Source: Halobacteriales archaeon SW_7_65_23
Lineage (GTDB): Archaea > Halobacteriota > Halobacteria > Halobacteriales > Haloarculaceae
Direction of reading: 5' to 3'
Length of the DNA: 54,483 nt
Assembly: GCA_003022725.1 (NCBI GenBank)
Contig: PXSQ01000081.1
Location: 1-54,483 of the forward strand
The notes beneath the pieces are model-generated. The model was not told where the DNA came from. It was given only the letters and a program-made list of their open reading frames with translations, and ran no database searches. Below are positions 18,278 to 54,483 of the stretch, piece after piece. Position 1 is the stretch's first letter. Each line of letters starts with the position of its first letter. The translations under genes and the position numbers were made by a program.

Positions 18278-20053
18278 TCAGTCGGTCGGTTCCCCTTCCG
18301 ACTCGGAGATGTCCGTCACGACTTCGCCGCCCGCTCTGTCGATGACGAGTTCGCCCTCCTCGGCCATCTCCTGGACGCGGTCCTGGAACTCCTCGGATTC
18401 GAGGACTTCATACTCCGTCTGTAACCCTCTCTTTATCGCGTACATCATGAACACGAGGATGAACGCGAACGGCAGCCCCGTCGAGATGGCAGCTGCCTGC
18501 AAGGCGTCCAGCGCCGTCTCACCGCCAGCGATCAGCAGCGTCGACGCGACGACACCTTCGGTGACCGCCCAGAAGATGCGCATCGTGACCGGCGCGTCGT
18601 GCTTGCCGCCGGAGGTCAGGTGATCGATCACCAGCGACCCCGAGTCAGAGGACGTGATGAAGAACGTGCTCGTCAGCAGGATCGCCGCGCCTGACAGGAT
18701 CAGCGTTCCGGGCATCTCTGCGAACATGGCGAACATCGCCACTTCAGTGCCAAGGCCTTCCTCGATCATCGGGCCGGCGATCGCTCCGGCGGTTCCCTCG
18801 CTGAGCTCCATGTTGAGCGCGGTGCCGCCGAGTGTCGCGAACCAGACGACCGAGAACAGCACCGGCAGGATCATCACGCCGCCGATGAACTCACGGACCG
18901 TCCGGCCTTTCGAGATGCGGGCGATGAACATGCCGACGAACGGCGACCAGGCGATCCACCACGCCCAGTAGAAGATCGTCCAGTCGCCGGTGAAGCCGTC
19001 GTACGCGTACTGCGATCCCGCGCCGAGCGCGCCCGCGTAGAAGGACAACGAGAAGAAGTTGCCCAGGTACCCGCCCAGGCCCTGAGGCAGCAGGCCCAGG
19101 ATGAACAGCGTCGGGCCCATCACCATCACCGACGCCAGCAGCGTGAGCATCAGCCCGAGGTTCAGGTTACTCAGGCGGCGGACGCCGCCGTCCAGGCCGG
19201 CCGCGACCGACATCACCGCGATGCCGGTGACGACCGCGATGATGCCGACCTGCACGGCCGTGCTCGTGGGGACTGCCGGTGCCGCTGCGGCGTTCTCCCC
19301 GAGGAAGTTGAGCCCCGCGTTGATCTGCAACGCGCCGAGCCCGAGCGACGTCACGAGGCCGAACAGCGTCGCGAACACCGTCAGGATGTCGATGATGTGG
19401 CCGGGCCAGCCGTAGATCCGCTCGCCCAGCACGGGCCAGAAGATCGACCGGAAGGTCAGCGGAAGCCCGCGGTTGAACGAGAAGAAGGCCAGTGATAACC
19501 CGACCAGCGCGTATATCGCCCACGGGTGAAAGCCCCAGTGGAACAGTGCGACTGCCATCGCGACCTCACTCGCGGCGGCGGTGCCCGCCTCCGCGCCGAG
19601 ATGCGGGAAGTTCAGGTGCCAGATCGGTTCGCCGACGCCGAAGAACATGAGGCCGATCCCCATGCCGGCGCTGAACAGCATCGCGACCCACGATATGTCG
19701 CTAAACTCCTTGTCGGCGTCAACACCGCCCAGCCTGATCTTGCCGTACTTGCTCAGCGCGAGATAGACCATGAAGATGATAAAGAGGTTCGCCGCGAGGA
19801 TGAAGAACCAGCCGAAGTTGGCGATTGCTCCACCCCGCACGTCGAGGTACAGTTGATTTGCCGTATCAGGTGCCAACAGCGAAAACGCGATGAAAAACAG
19901 GACGACGCCCGCCGAGATGAAAAACACCTGCGGGTGCACGTCGAACCCGTACCCCTGCCAGTTGGTGTCGCCTGGTTCGCGATCCGTCTCTGCGTGGAAC
20001 AGCTCTACCTGTAACCCGTCCCCGAACCCGTCGTCATCATCACTCCCACTCAT
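18278..20053 (-). CDS. BCCT-family transporter (betaine/carnitine/choline type)
   Basis: This 591-residue protein has about twelve membrane helices. Signatures of the BCCT family are clear: AMLFSAGMGIGLMFFGVGEP (the glycine-rich helix involved in Na+ coupling in BetP-type members), ALFHWGFHPWAIY, and the WTIFYWAWWIAWSPFVGMF helix that carries the tryptophan box for the quaternary ammonium group. A conserved TSSDSGSLVIDHL follows. The C-terminus is acidic, about 60 residues. The substrate is probably glycine betaine or a relative, by family. A GGAGG ribosome-binding site stands 6 bases before the ATG, unusual enough here to suggest a leadered mRNA, and a 21-codon ORF overlaps the start. Confidence 0.93.
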   Translation of the reverse strand: MSGSDDDDGFGDGLQVELFHAETDREPGDTNWQGYGFDVHPQVFFISAGVVLFFIAFSLLAPDTANQLYLDVRGGAIANFGWFFILAANLFIIFMVYLALSKYGKIRLGGVDADKEFSDISWVAMLFSAGMGIGLMFFGVGEPIWHLNFPHLGAEAGTAAASEVAMAVALFHWGFHPWAIYALVGLSLAFFSFNRGLPLTFRSIFWPVLGERIYGWPGHIIDILTVFATLFGLVTSLGLGALQINAGLNFLGENAAAAPAVPTSTAVQVGIIAVVTGIAVMSVAAGLDGGVRRLSNLNLGLMLTLLASVMVMGPTLFILGLLPQGLGGYLGNFFSLSFYAGALGAGSQYAYDGFTGDWTIFYWAWWIAWSPFVGMFIARISKGRTVREFIGGVMILPVLFSVVWFATLGGTALNMELSEGTAGAIAGPMIEEGLGTEVAMFAMFAEMPGTLILSGAAILLTSTFFITSSDSGSLVIDHLTSGGKHDAPVTMRIFWAVTEGVVASTLLIAGGETALDALQAAAISTGLPFAFILVFMMYAIKRGLQTEYEVLESEEFQDRVQEMAEEGELVIDRAGGEVVTDISESEGEPTD

Positions 20054-20115
20054 TGTTTACCTCCGATCCATCCGTTGTCGTGTTGTCGTTTGCGAGTCAT
20101 AGTTTGTGTTGCCAT
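20050..20115 (-). CDS. 21-codon upstream ORF overlapping the BCCT start
   Basis: From the ATG at 20115 a 21-residue basic peptide is encoded (beginning MATQTMTRKR). Its TGA overlaps the BCCT start codon as ATGA. The BCCT Shine-Dalgarno (ggaggt) lies within its last codons. A TATA-like gtttatacc is about 75 bases upstream. Stop-start overlap of this kind usually couples translation. It could be a regulatory leader peptide, or chance in a short leader. Confidence 0.35.
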   Translation of the reverse strand: MATQTMTRKRQHDNGWIGGKQ

Positions 20116-20336
20116 TGTGGTTAGTGTGTTCTTTCTACCGGCATTGACCTTGCCACTCGCTAACGCGGTTCGGAGTGAATGTTGGTATAAACTTCAGTGC
20201 TTCGAAAATCATAACAGAATAAACAGTAATAGTTTCATCTCATTACGGCTGTAAATCCGTTCGGTCAACGTGTATAGAGGTATGTATGTTCATGTGAGTA
20301 AAATATATTTTTCGGAAAACTGGGGCTCCTGTCATC

Positions 20337-21116: not shown

Positions 21117-21527
21117 ATGGTGGATCTTCCCTGGCGAGGCGAGGAAGCCGACGAGGCCGGGTCCGTTCCTGACGACGGTGCCGACGGGGAGCCGATCGTC
21201 ACGTGCCAGTTCCAGGACGGAACGCTGCGGGTGTACAGCGACGTCATCGACATTGACCGCTCGTCGCGGTCGAAGTTCGAGGACAAGGAGATCCCTCTGT
21301 CCGAGGTCCGTGGTGTCACCTACTCGAAGCGGCTGGTCATCAGCTACATCCAGATCGACCAGGTCGGGGTCGAGACCGACACCGCAAGCCGGCTGTCGAC
21401 GCCGGTCGACGAGAACACCCTGCACCTCGGCCGTGGCAAGCGCTCGTGTGCGAAGCGGGCACGCGACGCGATCCGGCAGCGACGCTACGCACTACCGCAG
21501 CATTCTCCGCGACGTCGTGGACCCTGA
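21117..21527 (+). CDS. PH-like-domain haloarchaeal protein, C-terminus uncertain
   Basis: The product has 136 residues. After an acidic N-terminus come alternating strands (IVTCQFQDGTLRVYSDVIDI, IPLSEVRGVTYSKRLVISYI, IDQVGVETDTASRLSTP) and a final helix RSCAKRARDAIRQR, a layout like the bacterial PH-type domain. The last 15 residues (after about 21480) are arginine/proline-rich and overlap folP by 188 bases on the other strand. I think the true stop has been removed by a deletion that also fused the folP 3' end. Function is unknown. Confidence 0.65.
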   Translation: MVDLPWRGEEADEAGSVPDDGADGEPIVTCQFQDGTLRVYSDVIDIDRSSRSKFEDKEIPLSEVRGVTYSKRLVISYIQIDQVGVETDTASRLSTPVDENTLHLGRGKRSCAKRARDAIRQRRYALPQHSPRRRGP

Positions 21528-23865
21528 CGACGTCCGCACCGCGTTCGGCCGCCATCGCGGTCAGGGCGAGCGTCGGGGCGAGCCGCTCACCGCTCCCGCA
21601 GCCGACGTGGTCGTACATCGACTTCCTGGAGTGGCCGACCATCACCGGACAGCCCAGCGCGTCGAACTCCGCAACACGGTCGACGAGTTCGAACGACTCC
21701 GCGGGGCGCTTGCCGAACCCACAGCCCGGGTCGACGACGATCTGCTCCCGGTCGATGCCGGCCTGCTCGGCGAGCAGGACCCGCTCGTTCAGTTCGTAGA
21801 GGACGTCCTCGACGACGTCGCCGTACGACGCGCTGCGGCCCGGATCGACGGGCGCAGAGAGGCTGTGCATCAGTATTAGCGACGCGTCGTGCTCGGCGAC
21901 GACGAACCGCATCTCAGGGTCTGAGAGCCCGGAGACGTCGTTGACGACGTCGGCACCCGCGGCGAGTGCGGCGTCGGCGACCGCCGCTTTCCGCGTATCG
22001 ACCGAAACGGGAACGTCGAGCGACGAGAGTGCCTCGATGACGGGGACGACCCGTTCGATCTCCTCCTCGACCGACACCGGATCGGCCCCGGGCCGGGTGC
22101 TCTCGCCGCCGACGTCGACCACGTCCGCGCCTTCGGCGACCATCTCTTCGGCGCGCTCGACCGCCGCGTCTAGCCGGTCGTACTCGCCGCCGTCGTAGAA
22201 GCTGTCGGGCGTGACGTTCAGGATGCCCATCACGGCCGTCCGGTTCGTCCCGACGAGGTCCCACGACCCCGACCGTGACCCGCCCCCGCCGACCGCTGTA
22301 CGGAGCTGTCTGGCGACCTGGGCGAGTCCGTTGCCCTCCTCGGCGATGGCGTCGGCGAGCGTCCGGAGCTGTGGCCCGGTCCCCGAGAGCACCGTCACGA
22401 CGAACTTGCCCGGGGCACCCTTCGTGGAGCGCAGGCACGTCCCGCCGATCGCCTCAAGGTGCTCCGCGACGGTCCTGGCCTGTTCTCTGCGCAGATATGC
22501 GTTGAACACCCGCGTGTCGACGTCCTCGACGGTCGCTTCCTCGAACGCCGCGCCGGTGAAGACGGCGTCCCTGCGCAGCCGCCGGCCGCGGTCTTTCGGG
22601 ACCAGCAGCCGCGTCCAGCGGTCCCGCGCCTCCGCGACCGCGTACAGCGAGCCAGTCACGAGCACGAAGTCGTCCGGATCGGCGGCCGCGATGGCCCGCT
22701 CGGTCGCCTCCGGCACCGACGGGACCTGGTGGACCGTGTCGGCGTGTCCCTCGAACGTCGCCGCGAGGGCGGCCGGGTCCGCCGCGCGGTCGTTGTCTGG
22801 CCGCGTGGTGTACGCGGTGTCGACGTCGGGATACGCCGCCACCATCCGCTCGTGGTCCTTGTCGCCCATTGCCGCAAACACCACGTGCAGGTCGTTGTAC
22901 TCGTACCGGCCCACGAGGTCGCGCAGGGTCGCGGCGGCCCCGGGGTTATGCGAGCCGTCGAGCACGACCGTGGGGTCGGTCGAGCGGATCTCGAATCGGC
23001 CCGGCCACGTTGCGCCCTGTAGCCCATCGGCGATCGTCGAGGTCGACAGGTCGGCGACCTGCCGCGCCAGCACCGACGCGACGCCCGCGTTCGTCGCCTG
23101 GTGGGCGCCCAGAAGCGGCAGCCGACTCTCCAGCGCCCAGTCCGTGCCCGTGATCGAGACGTGGCTCTCGATTTCAGAGCGCATCCCGTCCTCGACCGCG
23201 TGCACGTCCGCGTCGGGCCCGCCGACGGTGACGACGTCCGTCTCCTCACGGATCGCCGCCAGCGCGTCCCCGCTGGTCCCCGTGACCAGCGGTGCTCCCG
23301 ACGGTTCAACTTGCGCCTTGTCACGGGCGATCTCCTCGACGGTTTCGCCCAGCAGCTCCGTGTGCTCCAGGCTGACGCTGGTGACGGCAGCGGCGACCGG
23401 GTCGACCACGCTGGTCGCGTCGTAGCGCCCGCCGATACCGACCTCCAGCACCCCGACGTCGACGTCCGCGGCGCCGAAGTGGGCGATCGCCAGCGTCGTC
23501 AGCACCTCGAAGTGCGTGGGCATGTCGTCGTCGGCCCGGAGGCGCTCGATGCAGGGCTTGAGCTCCGTGACGAGCTCGGCGAGCCGTTCCTTAGGGATCT
23601 TCCGGCCGTTGACGCGGACCTGCTCGCGGACGTCGTTCAGCCGGGGCGAGGTGAACAGTCCCACGTCCAGCCCGCCGGTCCTGAGGGCGCTGTCGAGTAT
23701 CCGGGCGGTGCTCCCCTTGCCGTTCGAGCCCGCGATCTGCACCCACTCGACGTCGTCCTGCGGGTCGCCGAGGTGGGCAAGCATCCGTGCCGTCGTGTCC
23801 AGCCCGAGCTTCGGCCGGTGTTGCTGCAGGGAAGTGAGATAGTCGGCTGCTTCGTGATACTCCAT
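21340..23865 (-). CDS. folCP: Fused dihydrofolate synthase (FolC) - dihydropteroate synthase (FolP)
   Basis: From the ATG at 23865 (MEYHEAADYL) the protein has 841 residues. The N-terminal half is FolC: the P-loop GSNGKGSTARILD, LFTSPRLNDVREQV, the ATP/Mg site GVLEVGIGGRYDATS, and a Mur-ligase C domain with VVLDGSHNPGAAATL. The C-terminal half is FolP: MGILNVTPDSFYDGG, DVGGESTRPGADPVS, DPGCGFGKR and VGHSRKSM. The pair catalyses two consecutive steps of folate synthesis. Such a FolCP fusion is known from Haloferax. The last 40 or so residues (after RVHDVAENAAVV) are arginine/serine-rich and overlap the convergent gene, so the natural end is probably missing. The frame upstream of 23865 is not protein-like. 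Confidence 0.92.
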   Translation of the reverse strand: MEYHEAADYLTSLQQHRPKLGLDTTARMLAHLGDPQDDVEWVQIAGSNGKGSTARILDSALRTGGLDVGLFTSPRLNDVREQVRVNGRKIPKERLAELVTELKPCIERLRADDDMPTHFEVLTTLAIAHFGAADVDVGVLEVGIGGRYDATSVVDPVAAAVTSVSLEHTELLGETVEEIARDKAQVEPSGAPLVTGTSGDALAAIREETDVVTVGGPDADVHAVEDGMRSEIESHVSITGTDWALESRLPLLGAHQATNAGVASVLARQVADLSTSTIADGLQGATWPGRFEIRSTDPTVVLDGSHNPGAAATLRDLVGRYEYNDLHVVFAAMGDKDHERMVAAYPDVDTAYTTRPDNDRAADPAALAATFEGHADTVHQVPSVPEATERAIAAADPDDFVLVTGSLYAVAEARDRWTRLLVPKDRGRRLRRDAVFTGAAFEEATVEDVDTRVFNAYLRREQARTVAEHLEAIGGTCLRSTKGAPGKFVVTVLSGTGPQLRTLADAIAEEGNGLAQVARQLRTAVGGGGSRSGSWDLVGTNRTAVMGILNVTPDSFYDGGEYDRLDAAVERAEEMVAEGADVVDVGGESTRPGADPVSVEEEIERVVPVIEALSSLDVPVSVDTRKAAVADAALAAGADVVNDVSGLSDPEMRFVVAEHDASLILMHSLSAPVDPGRSASYGDVVEDVLYELNERVLLAEQAGIDREQIVVDPGCGFGKRPAESFELVDRVAEFDALGCPVMVGHSRKSMYDHVGCGSGERLAPTLALTAMAAERGADVVRVHDVAENAAVVRSVAAGSRRVPASHTSACHGRGAGCSRRPASTAGLRCRSRPRPGRSGCS

Positions 23866-24075
23866 ACCACATGTCCCCGGTGGGCTCCTGATTAAGCTAT
23901 CGGGCCGCTGGCCCCCGGAAAGCCGGCGTCCACGCGGGTCCAGCGAAACACAATCAATCACAGCACTGATCTGTTGTGCAAATCCGCAGATGCAGACCTG
24001 TAGCGGCCACATCCTTTCCGACCTATGTCAGATATACGAACCCTCATGAGGCGATGGGAGAGACGTACACGTAGG

Positions 24076-25803
24076 ATGTCACCAGACGACGACACACAGG
24101 AGCCGATTCCAACGGACTACGAACTCGCACAATCCACTGACATGGAGCCGATCTGGGAGCTGGTCGAACCCTGGGGCCTCGGGCTCGACGACCTCCAGTA
24201 CTTCGGGGAATACACCGCGAAAGTCAAACACCACGCCATCGATCGCCTCCGGGATCAGGCCGAGGACCGCGAGCAGAACCTCGTACTGGTAACGGGGATG
24301 ACGCCGACGCCGAAAGGCGAGGGGAAGACAGTAACGACTGTCGGCCTGGGCCAGACGCTCAACCACCTCGGCGAGGAGACGATGACGGCGATCCGGGAGC
24401 CGTCGCTGGGCCCGGTGTTCGGCGTCAAGGGCGGCGCGGCCGGCGGCGGGCGCTCGCAGGTGCTCCCGATGGAGGACATCAACCTCCACTTCACCGGCGA
24501 CCTCCACGCGCTCACCTCCGCGCACAACCTGATCGCCGCGATGCTCGACGCCCGCCTCTCGCAGGGCAACGACCTCGACATCAACGTCAACGAGGTCGCC
24601 TGGAAGCGCGCCCTGGACATGAACGACCGCGCGCTACGCAAGACGGTCGTCGGCCTCGGCGGCAAAAGCGGCGGCACGCCCCGCGAGGACGGGTTCGAAC
24701 TGACCGCGGCCTCGGAACTGATGGCGGTGCTCTGCCTGGCGACGGACCTGGCGGATCTCAAAGAGCGCGTCGCCCGGATCATCGTCGCCTACGATTCCGA
24801 GGGCGACCCGATCACGGTCGACGACATCGAGGCCACCGGGCCGGCCACGATGCTGCTCCGGGACGCGATCAAGCCCAACGTCGTCCAGACCATCGAGGGG
24901 ACGCCCGCGTTCGTCCACGGCGGGCCGTTCGCCAACATCGCCCACGGGACGAACTCGCTGATCGCCGACAAGGCGGCGTTCGGCATGGCCGACTACCTCG
25001 TCACCGAGGCCGGGTTCGGCTCGGACCTGGGCGCCGAGAAGTTCATGAACGTTGTCTGCCGGATGGGCGACATGGTGCCCAACGCCGTCGTGCTGGTCTC
25101 CTCGATCCGGGCGCTGAAGTACCACGGGCTGGAGCAGTGGCCCGTCGACTACGACGAGATCGACGAGGCGGGCGTCGACGCGGTCGAGGCCGGGTTCGAG
25201 AACCTCGACAAGCACGTCTCGAACCTCCAGCAGTTCGGCGTCCCGATCGTGGTCGCGGTCAACCGCTTCCCGGACGACTCCGACGAGGAGATCCGGACCG
25301 TCATCGACCACTGCCGGGACAGACTGGGCGTCAAGGCGGCCGCCTCCGAGGTGTTCGAGAAGGGCAGCGAGGGCGGCGTCGACCTCGGCGAACGCGTGAT
25401 TGCCGCAGTCGACGAGAGCAACGAGTCCGAGTTCGAGTTCCTCTACGACGAGGACGACCCGATCGAGGAGAAGATCGAGACAGTCGCGACGGACATCTAC
25501 GGCGCCGACGGCGTCAAGTTCACCGGCGGCGCGCTCGACGACATCGAGCGCATGAACGGCCTCGGCTTCGGGGACGTCCCCGTGGTCATGTCCAAGACGT
25601 TCCACTCGCTGAGCGACGACGCCAGCAAGAAAGGCGCCCCGAGCGGGTGGGAACTGGAGATCAGCGAGGTGTACCCCTCGGCCGGTGCCGGGTTCATCGT
25701 CGCCCTCACCGCCGACGCGCTGACAATGCCGGGGCTGCCACAGCGCCCCGCCGCCGCCGACATGGACATCGACGAGGACGGCAACATCTCCGGGCTGTTC
25801 TGA
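24076..25803 (+). CDS. fhs: Formate-tetrahydrofolate ligase
   Basis: From the ATG at 24076 the product has 575 residues (an in-frame ATG at 24025 would add 17 basic residues that I doubt). The ATP site GMTPTPKGEGKT is at about 75-84, followed by the family's REPSLGPVFGVKGGAAGGG motif. FTGDLHALTSAHNL and EGTPAFVHGGPFANIAHGTNS also belong to it, and the end MPGLPQRPAA is typical. It interconverts formate plus ATP and 10-formyl-THF. In a catabolic setting it can run backward and recover ATP. It is divergent from folCP with a 210-base gap. The sequence looks complete. Confidence 0.96.
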   Translation: MSPDDDTQEPIPTDYELAQSTDMEPIWELVEPWGLGLDDLQYFGEYTAKVKHHAIDRLRDQAEDREQNLVLVTGMTPTPKGEGKTVTTVGLGQTLNHLGEETMTAIREPSLGPVFGVKGGAAGGGRSQVLPMEDINLHFTGDLHALTSAHNLIAAMLDARLSQGNDLDINVNEVAWKRALDMNDRALRKTVVGLGGKSGGTPREDGFELTAASELMAVLCLATDLADLKERVARIIVAYDSEGDPITVDDIEATGPATMLLRDAIKPNVVQTIEGTPAFVHGGPFANIAHGTNSLIADKAAFGMADYLVTEAGFGSDLGAEKFMNVVCRMGDMVPNAVVLVSSIRALKYHGLEQWPVDYDEIDEAGVDAVEAGFENLDKHVSNLQQFGVPIVVAVNRFPDDSDEEIRTVIDHCRDRLGVKAAASEVFEKGSEGGVDLGERVIAAVDESNESEFEFLYDEDDPIEEKIETVATDIYGADGVKFTGGALDDIERMNGLGFGDVPVVMSKTFHSLSDDASKKGAPSGWELEISEVYPSAGAGFIVALTADALTMPGLPQRPAAADMDIDEDGNISGLF

Positions 25804-41780: not shown

Positions 41781-41921
41781 CCAGTCTCTGCTAGACAGCC
41801 AGACGTGACTCCGTCCAGTGCCAGGACAGTCCATCGGCTGTGTCATGACCCGACTAACGGGAGTTGGGACGGCATGGTGTACCTGAATCACGTCTGGCTG
41901 TCTATCTGCGGAGGCAGACCC
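41777..41921 (-). mobile_element. Left 145-bp arm with a 111-bp MITE-like core, inverted copy
   Basis: The 111-bp core is 41793-41903, with perfect 16-base ends (agacagccagacgtga and complement). The core plus 16 and 18 flanking bases is the near-perfect reverse complement of 42902-43046. Only scattered single-base differences are seen over the 145 bases. The sequence has no ORF. Together with the right arm it brackets the SDR gene like a composite element. Confidence 0.75.
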
Positions 41922-42061
41922 AAATCCTCGTTTCGGTCGGGGATCGCCTGCGGGGGCGGCGGATCTTGCCCTCGCGCTACTCGCTGACTCTGTTTCTCCG
42001 CAGTGTGACACGATGTGCTGCCGGCAGGAGAATTTTACCGGGACTGGTCGTAGTGGCTTGT

Positions 42062-42850: not shown

Positions 42851-42887
42851 TACTGGTGGCTATACGTACGTGAACACTCGAATTGAG
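42848..42887 (+). repeat. TGATACTG repeat at the SDR stop codon
   Basis: tgatactggtggctatacgt and the following 20 bases match the minus strand of 20741-20780 with few differences. The first three bases are the SDR stop codon. Confidence 0.6.
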
Positions 42888-42901
42888 AATCCAGGTGGAA
42901 C

Positions 42902-43046
42902 GGGTCTGTCTCCGCAGATAGACAGCCAGACGTGATTCAGGTACGCCATGCCGTCCCAACTCTCGTTGTTCGGGTCATGACACAGCCGATGGACTGTCCT
43001 GGCACTGGACGGAGTCACGTCTGGCTGTCTAACAGAGACTGGTGAG
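42902..43046 (+). mobile_element. Right 145-bp arm with a 111-bp MITE-like core
   Basis: The core is 42920-43030 with perfect 16-base terminal inverted repeats. It matches 29015-29125 in the same orientation and 41793-41903 in the opposite one. The rest of the 42851-43302 gap contains AT-rich sequence (ttatatttc near 43101, catttatgagtc near 43174) that should hold the promoter of the following flavoprotein gene. Confidence 0.75.
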
Positions 43047-43302
43047 ACTGTCGATCGGATGAACGCAGTCGCCGGCCACGACATAACCTCCAAAGGAGCT
43101 TATATTTCTTGGATTGTGCAGGCTACGCCGCCGCAGCAGCCGCCCAGCTCCCTCGTCGTGACCGACACGCTACATTTATGAGTCAATTTAAGTGACGGAC
43201 GGATATCTCTTTGAACATGACAAGGCAGGCAACTGGCTGCCGAGCAGTCACTGACAGTGTTGACCACGGACAGCACCGACGAGCTTCACCGGGTGAGTGC
43301 CG

Positions 43303-45828: not shown

Positions 45829-45880
45829 CGGCCGCGTCGGACCGTTCGTCGTGGAGTCGTCGCTGACGGTCTCAGGCCGT

Positions 45881-45968
45881 CGCGCTGACGGGTCGGCGTG
45901 ATCAGACGCTGCAGGTGGTGCCGCCGCGCCGACGGGTCGGTGCGATCGAACGCGGCAGGTGCCGCCGC
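45881..45968. repeat. 44-bp imperfect tandem duplication
   Basis: A unit beginning cgcgctgacgggtcggcgtg is followed at once by a similar one beginning cgcgccgacgggtcggtgcg. The second copy starts at 45925 and agrees at most positions. It lies in the gap between the flavoprotein gene and etfB. Confidence 0.55.
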
Positions 45969-46020
45969 GAGACAACCGAGCAACTGAAACGAAACACGAT
46001 CCTACGATACACGAGAGAAC

Positions 46021-46791
46021 ATGAACGTACTAGCCTGTTTGAAGCGCGTCCCGAACACCGGGGCGAAGATCGTACTGACCGAGGACCAACAGGAGATCGA
46101 CACGACGAACCTGGGCTTTACGATGAGCCCACACGAGGAGTGTGCCGTCGAGGAGGCGGTCCAGATCGTCGAGGAGCACGGCGGCTCCGCGACGGCGCTG
46201 ACGCTCGGCTCTGCGGAGGCGACCGAGCAGGTCAGGACTGCCATTGCGATGCAGGCCGACGAGGGCGTGTTGCTCGAAACTGACGGCGAGGAGTGGAGCC
46301 CCCGCAACACCGCCGGGGCGATCGCGGAATTCGTCCGGGACCGCCAGGAGGACGGCGGCGGGTTCGACCTCCTGCTGTTCGGCAACGAGTCGGCCGACGC
46401 CGGCAACTACCAGGTCGGCGTCCGTGTGGCCCGCGAGCTGGGGTTGCCGATCGTGACCAGCATCAAGTCGCTCTCTGTCGAGGACGGCGCCGTAGTCGCC
46501 GAGCGCGAGATCCCACGCGGCTCTGAAGTGTACGAGCTCGACCTGCCGGCCGTCGTCGCCGTCAAGGAGGGGCTGAACGAGCCGCGGTACGCCTCGATGC
46601 GCGCCCGGATGCAGGCCCGCAGGCAGGAAGTCGAACACGTCACGCCCGAACGGCGGACCGACGCCGGCCTCAAGAAGATCCGGCTCGAGAGCCCCGAGAC
46701 GGAGGACAGCGAAACAGAGATCCTCGGCCACGGGCCGGAGGCGGTGCCCGAAATCGTCCGCGTGCTCGAAGACGAGCTGGAGGTGATCTGA
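46021..46791 (+). CDS. etfB: Electron transfer flavoprotein beta subunit
   Basis: The product has 256 residues. It starts MNVLACLKRVPNTGAKI and contains NLGFTMSPHEECAVEEAVQI, LLLFGNESADAGNYQVGVRVARELGLP and the signature VVAVKEGLNEPRYASMRARMQARRQ of EtfB, which includes the recognition-loop region for partner dehydrogenases. EtfB binds AMP and supports the FAD in EtfA. The gene is 2 bases from etfA, so they form a tight operon. Its placement between DMGDH-like genes suggests it takes electrons from them; this is the known partnership in mitochondria and many bacteria. Confidence 0.96.
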   Translation: MNVLACLKRVPNTGAKIVLTEDQQEIDTTNLGFTMSPHEECAVEEAVQIVEEHGGSATALTLGSAEATEQVRTAIAMQADEGVLLETDGEEWSPRNTAGAIAEFVRDRQEDGGGFDLLLFGNESADAGNYQVGVRVARELGLPIVTSIKSLSVEDGAVVAEREIPRGSEVYELDLPAVVAVKEGLNEPRYASMRARMQARRQEVEHVTPERRTDAGLKKIRLESPETEDSETEILGHGPEAVPEIVRVLEDELEVI

Positions 46792-46793
46792 CC

Positions 46794-47762
46794 ATGGTTC
46801 TCATCTTCGTCGAACACGACGGCGGCAAGCCCGCGGACAGCTCGCTGGAGATGCTCACGCTCGCGCGCGACGTCGCCGACCAGCTGGACGCCCCGGTCGA
46901 GGCCGCCGTCTTCGGTGACGGGGAGGGCCTGGCCGACGAACTCGGGCAGTTCGGCGTCGAGGCGATCCACGTGGTCGACTACGACGGCGTCGAGACGTAC
47001 GCGCCGATAGCGTGGGCGGAGAGCCTCGATCAACTCGCCTCCGCAGTGGAGCCGGAGGCCGTCGTCGCGCCCGGCAGCGAGCGCGGCCACGAGGTGCTCG
47101 CCCACCTCGGCGCCAGCCGCGACATCCCGATGGCGGCGAACTGCCTCGACGTGACGGTCGGCGACGCCTACGAGGTCGAACGACAGCGGTGGGGCGGGAC
47201 GCTGCTCGAACACGCCCGCCTCTCGGGCGATCCGAAGCTGCTGACGGCCGCCAAGAACGAACTGACGGTAGCGCCCGCCGCGGAGTCGGCCGAGCCGGCG
47301 GTCGAGCCGTTCACGCCGGAGCTGACCGACGATGACCTGGCCGTTCGGATCGACCGGATCGAAGAATCCGACGAGGAAGGCATCCCGCTGGGCGAAGCCC
47401 GGATCGTGGTCAGCGGCGGCCGCGGCGTCGGGAGCGCCGAGGACTTCGACCAGCTCGAGGAGCTGGCTGACCTGCTCGACGCCGCCGTGGGCGCATCACG
47501 TGCCGCCGTCAACGAGGGCTGGCGGAGCCACGACGACCAGGTCGGCCAGACCGGCGCCAAGATCTCGCCGACGCTGTACATCCCCTGCGGGATCAGCGGT
47601 GCCGTCCAGCACATGGTCGGCGCGAAAGGGTCGGAGTACATCCTGCCGATCAACACCGATCCGGAGGCCGCCATCATCGGCCACGCCGACTACGCCGTCA
47701 TCGGCGACCTCCACGAGGTCGTGCCGGAACTGAACGAGACGCTCCGCGAACGGTCGGACTGA
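46794..47762 (+). CDS. etfA: Electron transfer flavoprotein alpha subunit
   Basis: The product has 322 residues. The C-terminal FAD domain is canonical: VVSGGRGVGSAEDFDQLEEL, AVGASRAAVNEGW, QVGQTGAKISPTLYIPCGISGAVQHMVG and INTDPEAAIIGHADYAVIGDLHEVVP. The N-terminal domain is acidic. The conserved Arg in GGRGVG and the QTG motif contact the flavin. The pair passes electrons to the quinone pool through an ETF-quinone oxidoreductase, which is not in this window. Directly after its stop begin two sets of short tandem repeats. Confidence 0.96.
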   Translation: MVLIFVEHDGGKPADSSLEMLTLARDVADQLDAPVEAAVFGDGEGLADELGQFGVEAIHVVDYDGVETYAPIAWAESLDQLASAVEPEAVVAPGSERGHEVLAHLGASRDIPMAANCLDVTVGDAYEVERQRWGGTLLEHARLSGDPKLLTAAKNELTVAPAAESAEPAVEPFTPELTDDDLAVRIDRIEESDEEGIPLGEARIVVSGGRGVGSAEDFDQLEELADLLDAAVGASRAAVNEGWRSHDDQVGQTGAKISPTLYIPCGISGAVQHMVGAKGSEYILPINTDPEAAIIGHADYAVIGDLHEVVPELNETLRERSD

Positions 47763-48090: not shown

Positions 48091-50670
48091 ATGAGGACGA
48101 CAGAGCGCCTGCCCGAGGAGGCAGGCACGGTGATCGTCGGAGCAGGAATCGTCGGCTGCAACGTCGCCTACCAGCTGACACAGCTCGGCCGCGAGGACGT
48201 CGTCGTCGTCGACCAGGGGCCGATGCCCACGACCGGCGGCTCCTCGACGCACGCGCCGGGGATCATGTTCCAGACCGCGGAGCCGAAGGAACTCACGCAG
48301 TTCGCTAACTACAGCCGACAGCTGTACTCCCAGCTGGAGGGCGCCGATGGCCAGCAGGCGTACAACGAGACCGGCGGTATCGAGGTCGCCCGCAGCGAGG
48401 AGCGCATGGCGTTTCTAAAGCGCCGCGTCGAGTGGGCCCACGCCTGGGGGATCGAGGACCCACAGCTGCTCAGCCCGGGCGAGGTGACCGACCACCTGCC
48501 GCTGGTAGACGAAGAGGAGATCCTCGGCGGGTACTACTCGCCGACTGACGGCCAGGTGTCGGGCGTCGTCGCCTGCGACGCGCTCGCCCGCGAGGCGATG
48601 GAGCGCGGCGCGGAGTTCGTCCCGCACACCCGCACCGAGGACGTCCACATGTCTGACGGCGCGGTCCAGGGTGTCGTGACCGAGAACGGCACCATCGAGT
48701 GTGACGAGGTCGTCATTGCGACGAACATCTGGGCGCGCCAGCTCGGCGAGCAGATCGGCGTCCACCTGCCGGTGACGCCGGTCGAACACCAGTACACGAT
48801 GACTGAGCCGCTTGAGGAGTTGTCCGACAGCGCGGTCGACGTCACCGACCACCCGCTGTTCGAGAACTACGAGAACGTCTCCGGCGAGAAGGCTAAACGG
48901 CTGCTGGTCGGACCCGACCGCCCCATCCTCCGGGACCAGGACAACGCGATGTACTACCGGACCCACGGGGACTCCTACGGGATCGGGTCGTACAACCACG
49001 AGCCGCTCGTCCCCGACCCCGAAGAGCTCAGCGGCAACGACCCCGAGGGCGAACAGGGCTCCGTCCGGGAGTTCACCGACTACCACATGGACAACCCGAC
49101 ACATCCCGACCGCCCGCACAAGGCCCCCCGGCAGGCCAGCGATGAACTCCTGCCCGCGACGGCCGGCAAGGAACTGGAGTTCAGGTACAACGGGATGTTC
49201 GCCGAGTCGCCGAACGGCCTGCCGGTGCTGGGCCCCGTCCAGCAGTACGAGGGACTCTGGACCGCGGCGGCGATCTGGGTCACCCACGCCGGCGGCGCCG
49301 CCAAGGCGCTCGCCGAGTGGATGGAAAACGGCGTCCCGCGGCTGCCCGACGGGCCGATCGACCTCGCGCGGTGTAACGTCAACCGCTTCGACGAGCACGA
49401 GGGCAGCTGGGAGTTCGCCCGCGACATCGGCGGCGAGGAGTACCGCATCGTCTACAACGTGATGCACCCAAAGTGGGTGTGGACCGAGCACCAGCGCGAC
49501 ATCCGGCGGACGCCGATGTATCACTCCCACCAGAAGTACGACGCCGAACTGTGGACCGAAGCCGGCTGGGAGGAGCCACAGTGGTTCGAGTCCAACGAGG
49601 ATCTCCTCGAGCGCTACGAGGACCGGATCCCGGACCGCCACGGCTGGGAAGGCACGTACTGGTCGCCCATTGAGGGCGCCGAGGCACTCCACGTCCGCGA
49701 GCACGTGGGGCTCCACGACATGACGTCGTTCAACAAGGTCGAGGTGATCGGCGCCGACGCCGGCGAGTACCTCCAGTACCTCTGTACGAACGACATCGAC
49801 CTCGACGTGGGCGACATCACGTACACGCTCATGTGCAACGAGGGCGGGGGCGTCCGCGCGGACGTGACAGTCACGCGGACCGACGACGACCGCTACCTCG
49901 TGTTGACGACCGGCCGCGAGGTCGGGAACAACCACGTCGCGTGGATCCGCGACCGGGCGCCGGCGGGCGTCGTCGTCAACGACGTCACCTCCAGCCTCGC
50001 GGCGATGGTCTGTACGGGCCCGGACGCCCGCAAGGTGCTCTCGAAAGTGATGGACACCGACCTCTCGGACGAGGCGTTCCCGTTCTACACGAGCGAGGAG
50101 ACGTTCGTGAAGAACGTCCCGGTCCGGGCGCTTCGAGTCTCGTATGCGGGCGAACTCGGCTGGGAGCTGTACACCCCCTCGGAGTACGGCGAACGCCTCT
50201 GGGAGCACGTGCTCGCCGCCGGCAAGGAGTACGATATCCGGCCGTACGGCAACGGCGCGCTGGACGCCCTCCGCATCGAGAAAGGGTTCCGGCTGTGGGG
50301 TGAGGACCTCCACACCGAGCACAACCCCTACGAGGCTGACCTGGGCTGGGCGGTCGATCTCGAAACTGACTTCGTCGGCAAGGAGGCGGTGGCCGCGGCG
50401 GCCGACGGCGACAACATCGACCACAAGGTCGCCTGCCTGACGCTGGACGACGAGGAGGAGACAATCCTCGACGACCGGCCGGTGTTCGCGCCCGGCGAGG
50501 ACGAGGCGCTGGGCTACGTCCACAGCGCCGAGTACGGCTACACCGTCGGCGCCTGCGTCGCTTACACCTACCTGCCGCCGGAGTACGCCGACCCCGGCAC
50601 CGACGTGGAGATCCTCTACGAGAGCGACCGCTACGCCGCGACGGTCCGCGAGGAACCGCTGCTCGACTGA
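48091..50670 (+). CDS. Dimethylglycine/sarcosine dehydrogenase-family flavoprotein, paralogue 2
   Basis: The protein has 859 residues. The FAD site is VGAGIVGCNVAYQLTQLG near residue 16, and the candidate covalent-FAD residue is His54 in GGSSTHAPGIMF. The DAO domain runs to about 400 (GLPVLGPVQQYEGLWTAAAIW is the closing FAD segment). FAO_M and GCV_T (ALHVREHVGLHDMTSFNKVEV, VRALRVSYAGELGWELY) follow, and the GCV_T_C barrel ends at the C-terminus. It is complete and serves as a template for judging paralogue 3, from which it is clearly distinct. By family it oxidatively removes an N-methyl group from dimethylglycine or sarcosine with THF as acceptor. Confidence 0.92.
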   Translation: MRTTERLPEEAGTVIVGAGIVGCNVAYQLTQLGREDVVVVDQGPMPTTGGSSTHAPGIMFQTAEPKELTQFANYSRQLYSQLEGADGQQAYNETGGIEVARSEERMAFLKRRVEWAHAWGIEDPQLLSPGEVTDHLPLVDEEEILGGYYSPTDGQVSGVVACDALAREAMERGAEFVPHTRTEDVHMSDGAVQGVVTENGTIECDEVVIATNIWARQLGEQIGVHLPVTPVEHQYTMTEPLEELSDSAVDVTDHPLFENYENVSGEKAKRLLVGPDRPILRDQDNAMYYRTHGDSYGIGSYNHEPLVPDPEELSGNDPEGEQGSVREFTDYHMDNPTHPDRPHKAPRQASDELLPATAGKELEFRYNGMFAESPNGLPVLGPVQQYEGLWTAAAIWVTHAGGAAKALAEWMENGVPRLPDGPIDLARCNVNRFDEHEGSWEFARDIGGEEYRIVYNVMHPKWVWTEHQRDIRRTPMYHSHQKYDAELWTEAGWEEPQWFESNEDLLERYEDRIPDRHGWEGTYWSPIEGAEALHVREHVGLHDMTSFNKVEVIGADAGEYLQYLCTNDIDLDVGDITYTLMCNEGGGVRADVTVTRTDDDRYLVLTTGREVGNNHVAWIRDRAPAGVVVNDVTSSLAAMVCTGPDARKVLSKVMDTDLSDEAFPFYTSEETFVKNVPVRALRVSYAGELGWELYTPSEYGERLWEHVLAAGKEYDIRPYGNGALDALRIEKGFRLWGEDLHTEHNPYEADLGWAVDLETDFVGKEAVAAAADGDNIDHKVACLTLDDEEETILDDRPVFAPGEDEALGYVHSAEYGYTVGACVAYTYLPPEYADPGTDVEILYESDRYAATVREEPLLD

Positions 50671-50842
50671 TCCCTTCCGGGGAACTCGACTCGCGGCGAC
50701 CGGGACATTCCTGCCGCAGAAACATCGTTTCGGCTCCCTGTCAATCTGTGGTTGCACTCCACACCGCTCGTCGGGGCTGGTTCGCCGCGATCCGTCTACC
50801 AGTGAATTTAACATCGTGACAGGCCCTCGTGTATCAAACGAC

Positions 50843-53222
50843 ATGGAACGCACGGAACCCCCACCGCAGGTACAGACGCTGGTCGTCGGTGCCGGCGCCG
50901 TCGGGTGTAGCGTCGCGTATCATCTGACGGAACTGGGCGCCGAGGACGTGGCGGTCATCGACCAGGGACCGCTCCCGGTGACAGGCGGCTCGTCGGTGCA
51001 CGCGCCGGGGATCATCTTCCAGACGTCCCCCTCGAAGGTACAGACGAAGACGGCCCACTACACGAGCCGGCTGCTCGCCGACGCGGGCGTCTACGACGAG
51101 GTCGGCGGGATTGAGGTCGCCCGCAGCGAGCGGCGCATGGACTTCCTGCGCCGTCGCAAGGAGTGGGCGACCTCCTACGGCCTGCCGGACCCGCAACTCC
51201 TCTCGCCGGCCGAGGTGACCGAGCACCTCCCGCTGGTAAACGAGGAGGAGATCCTGGGCGGGTACTACTCGCCGACCGACGGCCGCGTCGACGGGATCGG
51301 CGCCCTGCAATGGTACATGGAGTACAGCGACGCCGCCTTCTACGGCAACACCACCGTCGAGGACCTGGAGGTGGCGGGCGGCGAGATCCAGGCTGTCGTC
51401 ACCGACCGCGGCCGCATCGAGTGCGACCGGTGCGTGATGGCGACGAACAACTGGGGGTACCAGACCGGCCAGCTCGCGGGGATCGACCTCCCCATCGCGC
51501 CGGTCGAACACCAGTACGTCGTCACCGAACCGCTGCCGGAGCTGTCGGAGTTCGCCAGCTCGGTCGACGAGCACACCGCGGGCCTGGAGGTGCCCGGCGA
51601 TCGCTCGATCCAGGAGGCGATGAGCCAGGGGCCAACCCGCCCGGTCGGCCGCGACCAGGACCACTCGCTGTACTTCCGCACCCACGGCGACGCGCTCGGG
51701 ATGGGGTCGTACAACCACGAGACGCTGTCGGTCGACCCCGAGGAGATGGGCACAAACAGCGAGGACCGGCAGGCTTCGGTGCGCGGGTTCACGGAGGAGC
51801 ACTGGACGGAGCCGACTCACCGCCACCGCGACAAATCGGCAAAGCAGGCGTTCGACGAACTGCTGCCGGCCAGCGCCGACGCGTCCTACGAGGCGACCGA
51901 GAACGGCATCTTCGTGGGTGTCCCGCGGCTCCCCTCCGGACCGGTCAACACCGGCGGCATCCACGTCCGGCGGTTCGAACCGCACGCCGGCGAGAAGGAG
52001 TACTTCGTCGACCGCGGCGCGACCCGCTACGAGCAGGTGTACAGCATCGTCGAACCCCGGTGGCAGCCCGACGACCACCGCGGCCTGCGCACCAGCCCGT
52101 TCTACCACCAGCAGCAGGAACTGGGGGCGGAGTTCTACCAGTCCGGCGGCTGGGAGTCGCCGCAGTACTACGAGCACAACGCGGACCTCCTAGAGCGCTA
52201 CGAGGACCGGATCCCCGAGCAGGACGGCTGGCAGGCGATCAACCGCTCGCCGATCGAGGGCGCCGAACACATCCACACCCGCGAGCACGTCTCGATGTTC
52301 GACATGACGACGTTCTCCTCGATCGAGGTCTCGGGCGACGGCGCCCGTGCCTTCCTCCAGCGGATGTGTTCGAACGACATCGACATCGACATCGGGCAGG
52401 TCCGGTACTCGCTGCTGCTCAACGAGGGCGGCACCATCCTCGCGGACGTGACTGTCGTCAAACTCGACGAGGAGGAGTACGTGGTCACGACCGGCGGGGG
52501 CAACTCCCCCGGGATCCACGGCGGAGGGCGGCCGGTCGACGATCGGGCTGTGGGGGCCGAAATCGCGGCTGCTGCTCCAGCGGTGTACCGACGCCGACGT
52601 GACCAACAGCGGGTTCCCGTACTTCCGCGCGAAACAGATGTACGTCGGCGAAGTGCCGGTGCTTGCGCTGCGGGTCTCCTACGTGGGCGAACTCGGCTGG
52701 GAGCTGTGGGCGCCCGTCGAGTACGGCCAGCGGCTCTGGGAGACGCTGTGGGAGGCCGGCCAGGATCTCGACGTCCGGCCGATGGGCGGCGGCGCCTTGA
52801 GTTCGATGCGCCTCGAGAAAGGCTACCGGCTGTGGGGCACCGACATCGACACGGACTCCAACCCCTTCGAGGCGGGGCTGCCCTTTGCGGTCGACATGGA
52901 CACCGACTTCGTCGGCAAGGAGGCGCTCGCCCAGGCCCGCGAGGCTGGCATCGACAACCGCATCACGCCCCTCACCCTCGACGATTCGACGGACATCATG
53001 CTCAGCGGCCGTCCGGTGATGAAGGACGGCGAGGCGATCGGGTACGTCCAGGCGGGCAACTACGGCTACACCCTCGGCGAGTCCATCGCCTACACGTACG
53101 TCCCCGACGAGTACGCAGAGGCGGGGACGTCGGTCACCGTGCAGTGTGAGGGCCAGCGCTACGACGCGACGATCCGGGACGAACCGCTGTTCGATCCGGG
53201 CCGGGACAAGATCATCAGATAG
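50843..53222 (+). pseudogene. Dimethylglycine/sarcosine dehydrogenase-family flavoprotein, paralogue 3, with two internal deletions
   Basis: From the ATG at 50843 (MERTEPPPQV) it follows paralogue 2 closely: VVGAGAVGCSVAYHLTELG, His53 in GGSSVHAPGIIF. At about 51915 an in-frame gap of some 40 residues removes the end of the FAD domain (NGIF joins directly to VGVPRLPSGPV). At about 52525 a second gap, of about 20 residues, also shifts the frame. The other frame continues STIGLWGPKSRLLLQRCTDA, LALRVSYVGELGWELW and the GCV_T_C barrel to 53222. If both deletions are real the protein cannot function; if they are sequence errors it is a third intact enzyme. It is 172 bases after paralogue 2. Confidence 0.88.
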
Positions 53223-53271
53223 CCAGTGACACCGTCACCAGAACGACCATGACATCGACAATACAGAACCC

Positions 53272-54483
53272 ATGACTTCGCCAGACTCGGAGGAACTCCC
53301 CGTCCAGTACGAGGACATCGAACGGGCACGCGAGCGGATCGACGACGACACCGTCGTCAAGGAGACGCCGGTCGAGCAGAGCACGTCGCTCGGCGAGTTC
53401 GTCGGCGGCGACGTGTACCTGAAGATGGAGCACCTCCAGTGGACGGGGTCGTTCAAGACCCGCGGCGCGTACAACAAGATCGTCCAGGACGTCGAGCGCG
53501 GCGTCGAGGAGTTCGTCGCCGCGAGCGCGGGCAACCACGCCCAGGGCGTCGCGCTCGCGGCCACGCGGTGTGGCGCGGACTCGACGATCTTCATGCCCGA
53601 GAACGCGCCACAGACGAAAATCGACGCGACGCGGGGGTACGGCGCGACGGTCGAACTCGTGGGCCAGGACTTCCAGAAGACGATGGCCCACGCCAAGGAG
53701 GTCGTCCAGGACCGTGACGCCGAGTTCGTCCACGCCTACGACGACACGGACATCATCGCGGGCCAGGGGACGCTCGGCACCGAGATGTACCACGACCACC
53801 CCAACGTGGAAACGGTGGTGGTGCCGATCGGCGGCGGCGGCCTCATCAGCGGCATCTCGACGGCGATCAAACACCTCTCGCCCGAGACCCGGGTCGTCGG
53901 CGTCCAGGCTACCGGCGCCGAGACCGTCCACAAGAGCCTCGACAAGGGAATCCCGGTGACGCTCGACGAGGTCGACACCATCGCTGACGGGATCGCAACC
54001 GGCGGCATCTCCGAGGCGACGCTCCGGATCATCCAGGCGAACGTCGACGAGGTCGTCACCGTCTCGGACACGGAGATCGCCCGCGCGATCCTCCTGCTGA
54101 TGGAGCGCGCGAAGCAGGTCGTCGAGGGCGCGGGGGCGGCGTCGGTCGCCGCGATCCTGAGCGACGACCTCGACGTCTCCGGCGAGACGGTGATGCCGCT
54201 GCTCTGTGGCGGGAACCTCGATATGACGCAGCTCCAGACGGTGCTGGTCCACGCGCTGACCGAGCGCCAGCAGCTCCTGCGGCTGCGCGTCCGGATCACG
54301 GACCGGCCGGGTGTGCTCGAAGAGATCTCCGGCGTCATCGCCGACTTCAAGGCCAACATCCACGACGTCCGCCACGATCGCTCCGTCGAGGACCTGGAAG
54401 TGGGTGAGGCCTACATCGTGTTCGACGTCGAGACCAGCGGGGCCGAACACGCCGGCAACATCGTCGAGGCGATCCGCGACCAC
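53272..54483 (+). CDS. ilvA: Threonine/serine ammonia-lyase, cut by the window end
   Basis: The reading frame from the ATG at 53272 stays open for 404 codons to the window edge. The PLP lysine is K62 in LQWTGSFKTRGAYNKI. SAGNHAQGVALAA and the phosphate loop PIGGGGLISGI follow, then LCGGNLDM. After about residue 330 an ACT domain (LLRLRVRITDRPGVLEEISGVIADF) indicates allosteric control. Threonine dehydratase makes 2-oxobutyrate for isoleucine; many such enzymes also deaminate serine to pyruvate. Next to demethylating flavoproteins and with glyA in the same region, a serine role is attractive. The missing part is at most a few residues. Confidence 0.93.
   Translation, partial: MTSPDSEELPVQYEDIERARERIDDDTVVKETPVEQSTSLGEFVGGDVYLKMEHLQWTGSFKTRGAYNKIVQDVERGVEEFVAASAGNHAQGVALAATRCGADSTIFMPENAPQTKIDATRGYGATVELVGQDFQKTMAHAKEVVQDRDAEFVHAYDDTDIIAGQGTLGTEMYHDHPNVETVVVPIGGGGLISGISTAIKHLSPETRVVGVQATGAETVHKSLDKGIPVTLDEVDTIADGIATGGISEATLRIIQANVDEVVTVSDTEIARAILLLMERAKQVVEGAGAASVAAILSDDLDVSGETVMPLLCGGNLDMTQLQTVLVHALTERQQLLRLRVRITDRPGVLEEISGVIADFKANIHDVRHDRSVEDLEVGEAYIVFDVETSGAEHAGNIVEAIRDH

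Follow-up and report, generated by a model that had tools for sequence, protein, structure and literature searches.

A tetrahydrofolate-linked gene cluster of haloarchaea with a DmdA/GcvT-like candidate for the first demethylation of glycine betaine

Glycine betaine (GB) is a common salt-protection molecule. How its first methyl group is removed in marine bacteria was described in 2025 as elusive and as a long-standing knowledge gap (PMC12478193). For haloarchaea, Anderson et al. (2011; PMC3102087) reported that four organisms have dimethylglycine (DMG) oxidase genes in the vicinity of BCCT transporters and suggested use of GB, DMG or sarcosine; a DMG-oxidase gene is also reported there for Haloferax volcanii. 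A different kind of demethylation is carried out by DmdA, the dimethylsulfoniopropionate (DMSP) demethylase, which makes 5-methyl-tetrahydrofolate (5-methyl-THF) by redox-neutral methyl transfer (PMC5395565); a study of this enzyme took a date for the Halobacteriales as a calibration point (PMC7487153). Here we describe a cluster on contig PXSQ01000081.1 of Halobacteriales archaeon SW_7_65_23 that combines DMG-oxidase-type flavoproteins and BCCT carriers with a DmdA/GcvT-like protein, for which dmdL is used as a label only. The window, i.e., the whole stretch of 54,483 nucleotides that was analyzed, is one entire contig (C81) of the 115 in a metagenome-assembled genome (MAG), which totals 2.63 Mb and is 79% complete. 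A first-pass annotation of the DNA knew of no described haloarchaeal pathway with this gene set. Searches of the open-licence PMC literature brought up neither this pathway nor a haloarchaeal betaine demethylase of the DmdA family, but the DMG-oxidase and BCCT part of the pathway is already in print (PMC3102087).

The gene content can be read as a route from GB to pyruvate and formate. BCCT carriers would import GB, and dmdL would pass one methyl group from GB straight to THF, yielding DMG and 5-methyl-THF and requiring neither cobalamin nor O2. MetF would convert 5-methyl-THF to methylene-THF, FolD would take this to formyl-THF, and formate-THF ligase (FTHFS), running in reverse, would release formate and form ATP. 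DMG would be converted via sarcosine to glycine by the flavoproteins DMG2 and DMG3 (and by DMG1 with EtfAB), which would load THF too, after which serine hydroxymethyltransferase (SHMT) and a serine/threonine dehydratase could carry glycine via serine to pyruvate. The folate would come from FolCP and PabAB, with DHFR contributing in relatives. The reactions, their directions and the substrate of dmdL are predicted from genomes; the gene families, their conservation and their co-occurrence were observed. We assign a probability of about 0.6 to this complete route, with dmdL starting it by direct methyl transfer and all three methyl groups being oxidised via THF. That the cluster serves, in one way or another, the THF-linked catabolism of N-methyl compounds is in our judgement highly probable. 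We also lean, at little better than even odds, toward dmdL being a new member of the GcvT/DmdA superfamily that acts as a GB:THF methyltransferase, a single protein that needs neither cobalamin nor O2 and that stands in largely mutual displacement with a Rieske oxygenase.

The distribution of the genes was examined in a sample of 145 Halobacteria genomes, the window genome included. dmdL occurs in 30 of these, namely the window genome and 29 relatives in which the protein is 74-87% identical. A metF query found 31 genomes: the 30 with dmdL (the window copy appearing as two pieces) and G057, so that metF is present in 30/30 genomes with dmdL and in 1/115 without. An independent search with the Pfam MTHFR model gave 30 genomes, i.e., the 29 relatives and G057, and missed the broken window copy. 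DMGDH-type matches (E <= 1e-60) were found in 42 genomes (30/30 with dmdL, 12/115 without), and FTHFS in 54 (30/30, one copy having an internal stop, and 24/115). Of 58 genera, 13 contain dmdL, and metF occurs in these and in one more; in the three genera where only some members have dmdL, metF varies identically. Fisher values for co-occurrence of dmdL with its partners across the 145 genomes are tiny, with the proviso that they treat genomes as independent, which genomes are not. Among 294 genomes sampled across the phylum, 11 had the dmdL protein (E up to 1e-60), all belonging to the order of the window. The profile thus identifies dmdL, metF, the DMGDH-type genes and FTHFS as a conserved haloarchaeal module, which bears out the co-occurrence that the first-pass annotation had proposed to examine by phylogenetic profiling; its interpretation of the genes as a full THF route likewise gains support from co-occurrence, on genomic grounds. 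The folD gene, which it had also listed, is present in the window, but FolD was found in 145/145 genomes, so its presence is not diagnostic and it was rejected as a module marker.

MetF interconverts 5-methyl-THF and 5,10-methylene-THF. In haloarchaea, a Mer-like enzyme (HVO_1937) has been proposed for the methylene-THF reductase step (PMC8305020), and a split MetE, with methyl-THF or a similar compound as the predicted donor, is reported to be the one methionine synthase of 73 Halobacteria genomes (PMC7857596). A Mer-family search matched 143 of the 145 genomes, 142 at E 2e-79 or better and G018 at 9.7e-39; this search is loose, since no match exceeded the curated cut-off and 10 of 14 control genomes, E. 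coli included, matched as well. A match was absent in G001 and G007 alone. Because a Mer-like reductase was matched there too, metF looks like an extra enzyme beside the Mer-like one in 28 of the 30 dmdL genomes, as expected for catabolism. It also seems unneeded for methionine, because it is absent in 114 of the 115 dmdL-less genomes while MetE is the reported sole synthase of the 73 genomes. That metF tracks dmdL implies that dmdL may make 5-methyl-THF, and the distribution of metF points to a role in handling 5-methyl-THF from dmdL. G001 and G007 each carry two MTHFR-family matches and resemble in genome size Halodesulfurarchaeum, for which a reductive role has been proposed (PMC5437934).

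Genomes with a DMGDH-type gene but no dmdL offer a second view of the first step. In 11 of these 12, a Rieske oxygenase gene lies in the same 20 kb. The best Rieske copies are 73-77% identical to a protein encoded on Haloarcula marismortui plasmid pNG700, and second copies in three genomes are 61-63% identical. Both the dehydratase gene (ilvA) and a BCCT gene are present in ten of the 11 stretches, and SHMT in nine; neither metF nor dmdL was found in any of them (20 kb each). The 42 genomes with a DMGDH-type match divide into 24 with dmdL only, 6 with both, 11 with Rieske only and 1 with neither (Fisher 2.9e-5), where the class with both was judged by the length of the Rieske frame and sequence-checked in G051 and G080. 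Among NCBIfam models, GbcA comes nearest to the Rieske protein of pNG700, at 132 bits against a cut-off of 670, so the name betaine monooxygenase is a lead and not an assignment of membership. In the control genome Haloferax volcanii the Rieske family was matched and MTHFR was not. Because two unrelated enzymes alternate before the same pathway, the pattern suggests that removing the first methyl group of betaine is the task of both dmdL and the Rieske enzyme. The first-pass annotation had found no obvious enzyme for this step unless the DmdA-like protein performs it; with metF tracking dmdL and the Rieske gene replacing dmdL in 11/12 genomes, that protein has become a specific candidate. In the window genome itself (G000), searches for Rieske (PF00848) and MttB-family (PF06253) proteins gave zero matches, absence not being proof in a MAG of this completeness. 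Elsewhere, MttB-family genes share a stretch with FTHFS in loci L153, L154, L155, L161 and L162. BHMT was rejected as the first step, as S-methyl_trans (PF02574) matched 0/145 Halobacteria and 9 of 14 control genomes.

The neighbourhood of dmdL was compared in stretches of up to 20 kb around the 29 relatives, plus six further places that hold a paralogue. A common order is HTH_10, dmdL, (SHMT), metF, a regulator-like gene, an AstE-like gene, DMG2, DMG3, the dehydratase and BCCT, and in some other genomes metF adjoins dmdL in a different arrangement; metF lies inside the stretch of 21 of the 29 relatives. A second set consisted of named loci, the best 80 of 498 relatives. The two sets are not independent, since several named loci come from the same genomes (e.g., L079/G075 and L093/G051), and within the second set L086 and L090 share one genome, as do L146 and L151. 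metF was found within the fetched flank of dmdL in 66/80 named loci and in 48 of the 55 with full flanks, at a median gap of 513 bp. It lies downstream on the opposite strand in 32 cases and on the same strand in 19, and upstream on the same strand in 13 and on the opposite strand in 2. Other genes near dmdL in the 80 loci are HTH_10 (48), the dehydratase (39), the family of the gene at 39465-40517 (36), DMG3 (34), FolD (29), DMG2 (27), BCCT1 (25), AstE (20), SHMT (18), FTHFS (17), PabA-like (14), BCCT2 (13), FolC-FolP (9) and DMG1 (5). A DHFR gene is directly upstream of dmdL in 8/80 loci, and 7/80 have nearby a molybdopterin oxidoreductase that we infer to be a formate dehydrogenase.

A well-annotated version of the cluster is found on pNG700 of Haloarcula marismortui. 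The order there is DHFR, dmdL, a short Tat-signal protein, methylene-THF reductase, a hypothetical protein, an aspartoacylase-family protein, an FAD oxidoreductase, the Rieske oxygenase, a hypothetical protein, an FAD oxidoreductase, ilvA, a universal stress protein, a hypothetical protein and BCCT, with folP and FTHFS further on. dmdL is annotated as "glycine cleavage system protein T" both here (WP_011222745) and in H. hispanica, a species with published deletion mutants (PMC11519228).

The identity of the methyl donor is the point at which other explanations compete with GB. D141 of dmdL aligns with the Asp of 1woo, 3tfh and bacterial DmdA proteins, presumably the catalytic Asp of the GcvT/DmdA THF site, which agrees with methyl transfer to THF. 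The best solved relative of dmdL is Pelagibacter DmdA (3tfh; phmmer E 9.8e-45, residues 35-385), followed by GcvT, and DmdA is also its best named model; dmdL further shares an N-D-P-V stretch with annotated DmdA where GcvT has D-D. Bacterial relatives with 35-37% identity (tblastn) have as neighbours dmdD or genes for acyl-CoA synthetase and enoyl-CoA hydratase, in DMSP-like clusters on plasmids of Marivivens, Phaeobacter P30 and Loktanella, and a 2026 paper deals with DMSP import via BCCT carriers (PMC13270143). The kinship with DmdA, these neighbours and DMSP import by such carriers would suit a haloarchaeal DMSP demethylase, a true DmdA, next to a DMGDH part that handles betaine derivatives separately. 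However, dmdL reaches only 243.9 bits (the Haloarcula copy 244.9) on the DmdA equivalog NF009133, which has a cut-off of 410; relatives encoded on five other bacterial plasmids reach 359-380 bits, and two annotated Roseobacter DmdA proteins, taken as positive controls, 600 and 681 bits. All 22 aligned haloarchaeal proteins have S-G-E-x-G where 3tfh and the two Roseobacter proteins have S-K-Q-G-G, a loop that we infer to set specificity. AMP-ligase, acyl-CoA dehydrogenase and enoyl-CoA hydratase genes (dmdB/C/D-type) were not among the families shared by at least 6 of the 80 named loci, in a survey based on heuristic ORF calls in which one of eight unlabelled families was not identified and rarer cases are possible. 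DMSP is less likely as the substrate because the DmdA cut-off was failed and such neighbours do not recur, and a DMGDH-type gene accompanies dmdL in 30/30 genomes, so that we regard a DMSP demethylase as quite unlikely. A single Trp named as DMSP-specific in DmdA (PMC7487153) was dropped as a test, as this position is Tyr in the annotated DmdA proteins of Roseobacter.

Demethylation of another N-methyl compound (choline, carnitine, proline betaine, trimethylamine or dimethylglycine), with 5-methyl-THF as the product that enters the C1 route described above, would fit a superfamily, GCV_T, that includes trimethylamine N-oxide demethylase and O-demethylases. The family has diversified in haloarchaea as well: a dmdL paralogue of 65-68% identity is present in seven genomes (G030, where it appears as two pieces of 60 and 71%, G048, G075, G095, G126, G130, where it directly adjoins dmdL, and G135). 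The sole recognised neighbour shared by the paralogue loci is an HTH_10-like regulator, in 4/7, and the paralogue is suggested to act on another substrate. A creatininase-family gene near dmdL in 7/80 named loci could also be reconciled with a different donor, which is nevertheless unlikely in view of the constant partnership with DMGDH-type enzymes, the common glycine-to-pyruvate neighbours and a displacing Rieske gene whose nearest model is a GB monooxygenase. It is very unlikely that dmdL is an ordinary GcvT-like partner for methylene groups in glycine or sarcosine oxidation, with metF kept for methionine. The GcvT fold and the database name glycine cleavage system protein T agree with such a role, but dmdL is only 31% identical to the GcvT of its own genome. 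In a 23-row tree, which was midpoint-rooted and in which long branches meet, dmdL is separate from GcvT; the haloarchaeal sequences cluster together with support (100/99), and the seven bacterial DmdA relatives all lie next to them (93/86). The absence of metF from nearly all dmdL-less genomes, alongside the report of split MetE as the one methionine synthase of 73 Halobacteria genomes (PMC7857596), argues in the same direction. Universal FolD and the nearby folate synthesis genes might finally be taken for a chance or general folate neighbourhood serving no specific pathway, which we consider hardly credible given the co-occurrence and a neighbourhood that is kept through rearrangement.

Several observations weigh against GB as the substrate or against a fixed module. 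G057 has metF without dmdL, G053 has a DMGDH-type protein with neither dmdL nor Rieske, and the six dmdL genomes with a short Rieske gene show that the two enzymes are not strictly exclusive. In 7/30 dmdL genomes (G001, G007, G017, G052, G061, G064 and G098) the DMGDH-type match is only 36-40% identical to DMG2, and therefore DMG2 and DMG3 are not constant companions of dmdL; in G017 and G061 the match is a DMG1-type gene with etfBA. MttB-type methyltransferases occur in 6/145 genomes, all of which have dmdL, and the DMSP-like surroundings of the bacterial relatives belong here too. In the window itself, metF and DMG3 are broken. Betaine gave no growth enhancement in Haloquadratum walsbyi, and a negative growth report exists also for H. 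utahensis (PMC3102087).

Features of the gene cluster in the window, with the family evidence for each (Pfam values are E-values).
Feature	Position	Strand	Basis
BCCT1, BCCT-family osmolyte carrier	18278-20053	-	Pfam BCCT 1e-175
FolC-FolP fusion, folate synthesis	21340-24012	-	Pfam Mur_ligase + Pterin_bind; NCBIfam folC and DHPS over cut-off
FTHFS, formate-THF ligase	24025-25803	+	Pfam FTHFS 4e-242; NCBIfam 795 bits, over cut-off
BCCT2, second BCCT-family carrier	29167-31023	+	Pfam BCCT 2.1e-131
PabA/TrpG-type glutamine amidotransferase	31030-31602	-	Pfam + NCBIfam
PabB/TrpE-type chorismate-binding enzyme	31599-32666	-	Pfam Chorismate_bind
FolD, methylene-THF dehydrogenase/cyclohydrolase	about 33302-34240	+	NCBIfam PRK14167 over cut-off
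HTH_10 (Bat-like) transcription regulator, beside dmdL	34390-35103	+	Pfam HTH_10
dmdL, DmdA/GcvT-like	35108-36490	+	Pfam GCV_T 5.5e-41
SHMT, serine hydroxymethyltransferase	37243-38529	-	Pfam SHMT 4.4e-148; NCBIfam over cut-off
metF, 5,10-methylene-THF reductase, interrupted	38637-39406	-	frames 38966-39406 and 38637-38969
Conserved protein, regulator-like	39465-40517	-	conserved pattern with DVs.ETVRRYMI
AstE/AspA-family deacylase	40733-41680	-	Pfam AstE_AspA_cat 1e-27
DMG1, DMGDH/DMG-oxidase-type flavoprotein with own ETF	43297-45828	+	Pfam DAO + FAO_M + GCV_T + GCV_T_C
etfB	46021-46791	+	Pfam ETF
etfA	46794-47762	+	Pfam ETF + ETF_alpha
DMG2, DMGDH/DMG-oxidase-type flavoprotein	48091-50670	+	Pfam DAO + FAO_M + GCV_T + GCV_T_C
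DMG3, DMGDH-type flavoprotein, broken	50816-53222	+	frames 50816-52516 and 52452-53222
Threonine/serine ammonia-lyase, runs off contig end	53272-54483	+	NCBIfam TIGR01127 435.7 bits, over cut-off

Gene families were assigned by Pfam and NCBIfam scans of the window proteins, and every family named in the first-pass annotation was recovered. Three DMGDH-type flavoproteins and metF are present as it had listed them, but the third flavoprotein gene and metF are broken here. BCCT1 scores 509.7 bits on the NCBIfam model betaine_BCCT and does not reach the cut-off of 650. The top NCBIfam model of the PabB-like protein is PabB-clade2, at 394.8 bits against a cut-off of 408.55, and its PabA/TrpG-type partner likely serves aminobenzoate synthesis. 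FolD homology begins near residue 80 of the called open reading frame (33065-34240), and the N-terminal piece of metF matches NCBIfam fadh2 at 1.2e-7, below the cut-off. The protein encoded at 39465-40517 had zero Pfam or NCBIfam matches in these scans and is probably a DNA-binding regulator, judging from its conserved C-terminal pattern. As the genes lie on both strands, they form a cluster and not one operon. The 5-bp gap between HTH_10 and dmdL was rejected as an operon sign because the 3' end of HTH_10 differs from that of a close relative by missing stretches.

The closest solved structure to DMG1 and DMG2 is Arthrobacter DMG oxidase (1pj5), which DMG1 matches at 474 bits and DMG2 at E 1.7e-169. 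All three flavoproteins have the DAO, FAO_M, GCV_T and GCV_T_C domains in one chain, DMG3 of the window only across two frames. The motif GGSTSHAPG of 1pj5, the conserved His of which we take to be the covalent-FAD His, corresponds to GGSSTHAPG in DMG2, GGSTGHASN in DMG1 and SSVHAPG in DMG3 of two relatives. An Asp of 1pj5 that is Ala in chain 3gsi is kept in DMG2 (GGVRADVTV), DMG1 (GGFVSDLTF) and DMG3 of locus L042 (GGILADITV).

Comparison with the closest named locus, L073 from the MAG "Halobacteriales archaeon QS_4_66_20" (dmdL 98% identical), helps to explain the broken genes. DNA identity between window and L073 is 89-96% over 11 aligned segments. In the window, metF falls into two frames of 146 and 110 aa, both 71-72% identical to the protein of an intact relative, and its region has 85 bp fewer than L073, at 38970. 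In DMG3, 126 bp (51916) and 47 bp (52522) are missing; the 47-bp loss shifts the frame, so that the reading frame changes near 52520 and the GCV_T domain is split over two frames. Both genes are open in L073, metF is a single open frame in the fetched loci of 20 relatives, and DMG3 is one open frame of 849-883 aa in 12. Further differences from L073 are a 76-bp loss near 32784 and, near 34991, one that is less clean and alters the 3' end of the HTH_10 gene. Because several losses fall in conserved genes that are open in L073, the missing stretches are likely assembly gaps, or possibly true deletions. The L073 locus is without glyA, and the ~6.4 kb with SDR, DMG1 and etfBA that separate the AstE-like gene from DMG2 in the window are missing there too.

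Some further observations concern genes next to these. The SDR-DMG1-etfB-etfA stretch spans 41864-47762 of the window, and the unit of DMG1 and etfBA is seen again in L112, L136, L145, L154 and L162. The creatininase-family gene near dmdL is found in L075, L081, L094, L098, L099, L121 and L122; as a guess, this gene and the AstE/AspA-like deacylase may supply sarcosine from creatine-like compounds. Of the dmdL paralogues (loci L060 and L067-L072), four were aligned, and these have N-D-F for N-D-P and S-L-G-Q for S-W-G-Q. Among more distant bacterial relatives, that of Lichenihabitans (34% identity) adjoins metF, with FolD and purU downstream, and that of Phaeobacter sp. G2 (31%) is near a trimethylamine methyltransferase family gene. 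Outside the cluster, the gene for the large subunit of carbamoyl-phosphate synthase (10805-14441, minus strand) looks frame-shifted: frame 11298-14441 matches only over residues 6-463 of 1047, and a second long coding-like frame (10805-13249) overlaps the remainder, a type of damage as in metF and DMG3.

If the proposed function is correct, dmdL would join the Rieske monooxygenase, BHMT and the corrinoid Mtg system as a solution for the first demethylation of GB. Haloarchaea would gain energy from a common osmolyte of their neighbours through a first step that depends on neither O2 nor cobalamin. The distribution of metF within the class would be explained, and the name glycine cleavage system protein T could be corrected, e.g., in Haloarcula marismortui and H. 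hispanica.

The cluster shares features with several described systems. The haloarchaea of Anderson et al. (2011; PMC3102087) have the same flavoproteins and carriers, and Haloarcula marismortui, with its cassette on pNG700, is among the four; the passages of that paper on these genes give no first-step enzyme, MetF link or C1 route. DmdA of Pelagibacter (3tfh) and the Roseobacter group resembles dmdL in its GcvT fold, in the conserved THF-site Asp and, as the best solved relative, in overall sequence, and its redox-neutral methyl transfer to THF is the chemistry proposed for dmdL. In contrast to DmdA, dmdL fails the equivalog cut-off, lacks S-K-Q-G-G, has 460 instead of 369 residues, and recurs beside metF, DMGDH and ilvA rather than dmdBCD. 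Two SAR11 aminomethyltransferases are alike by description: SAR11_1265, a close DmdA relative beside metF to which no substrate has been assigned, and SAR11_1303, postulated to act in GB metabolism (PMC3160333). These are bacterial, and SAR11 also has Bhmt (PMC3160333). The GbcAB Rieske GB monooxygenase takes off the first methyl group of GB, and a protein nearest to GbcA lies near DMGDH in the 11 dmdL-less haloarchaea, but GbcAB is an oxygenase that releases formaldehyde (PMC12478193) and its protein family is unlike that of dmdL. The MtgBCD system of Ruegeria pomeroyi, which is cobalamin-dependent and multi-subunit unlike dmdL, shares with the proposed route the transfer of a GB methyl group to THF and its oxidation by a dedicated reductase, MetF2, in an aerobe (PMC12478193).

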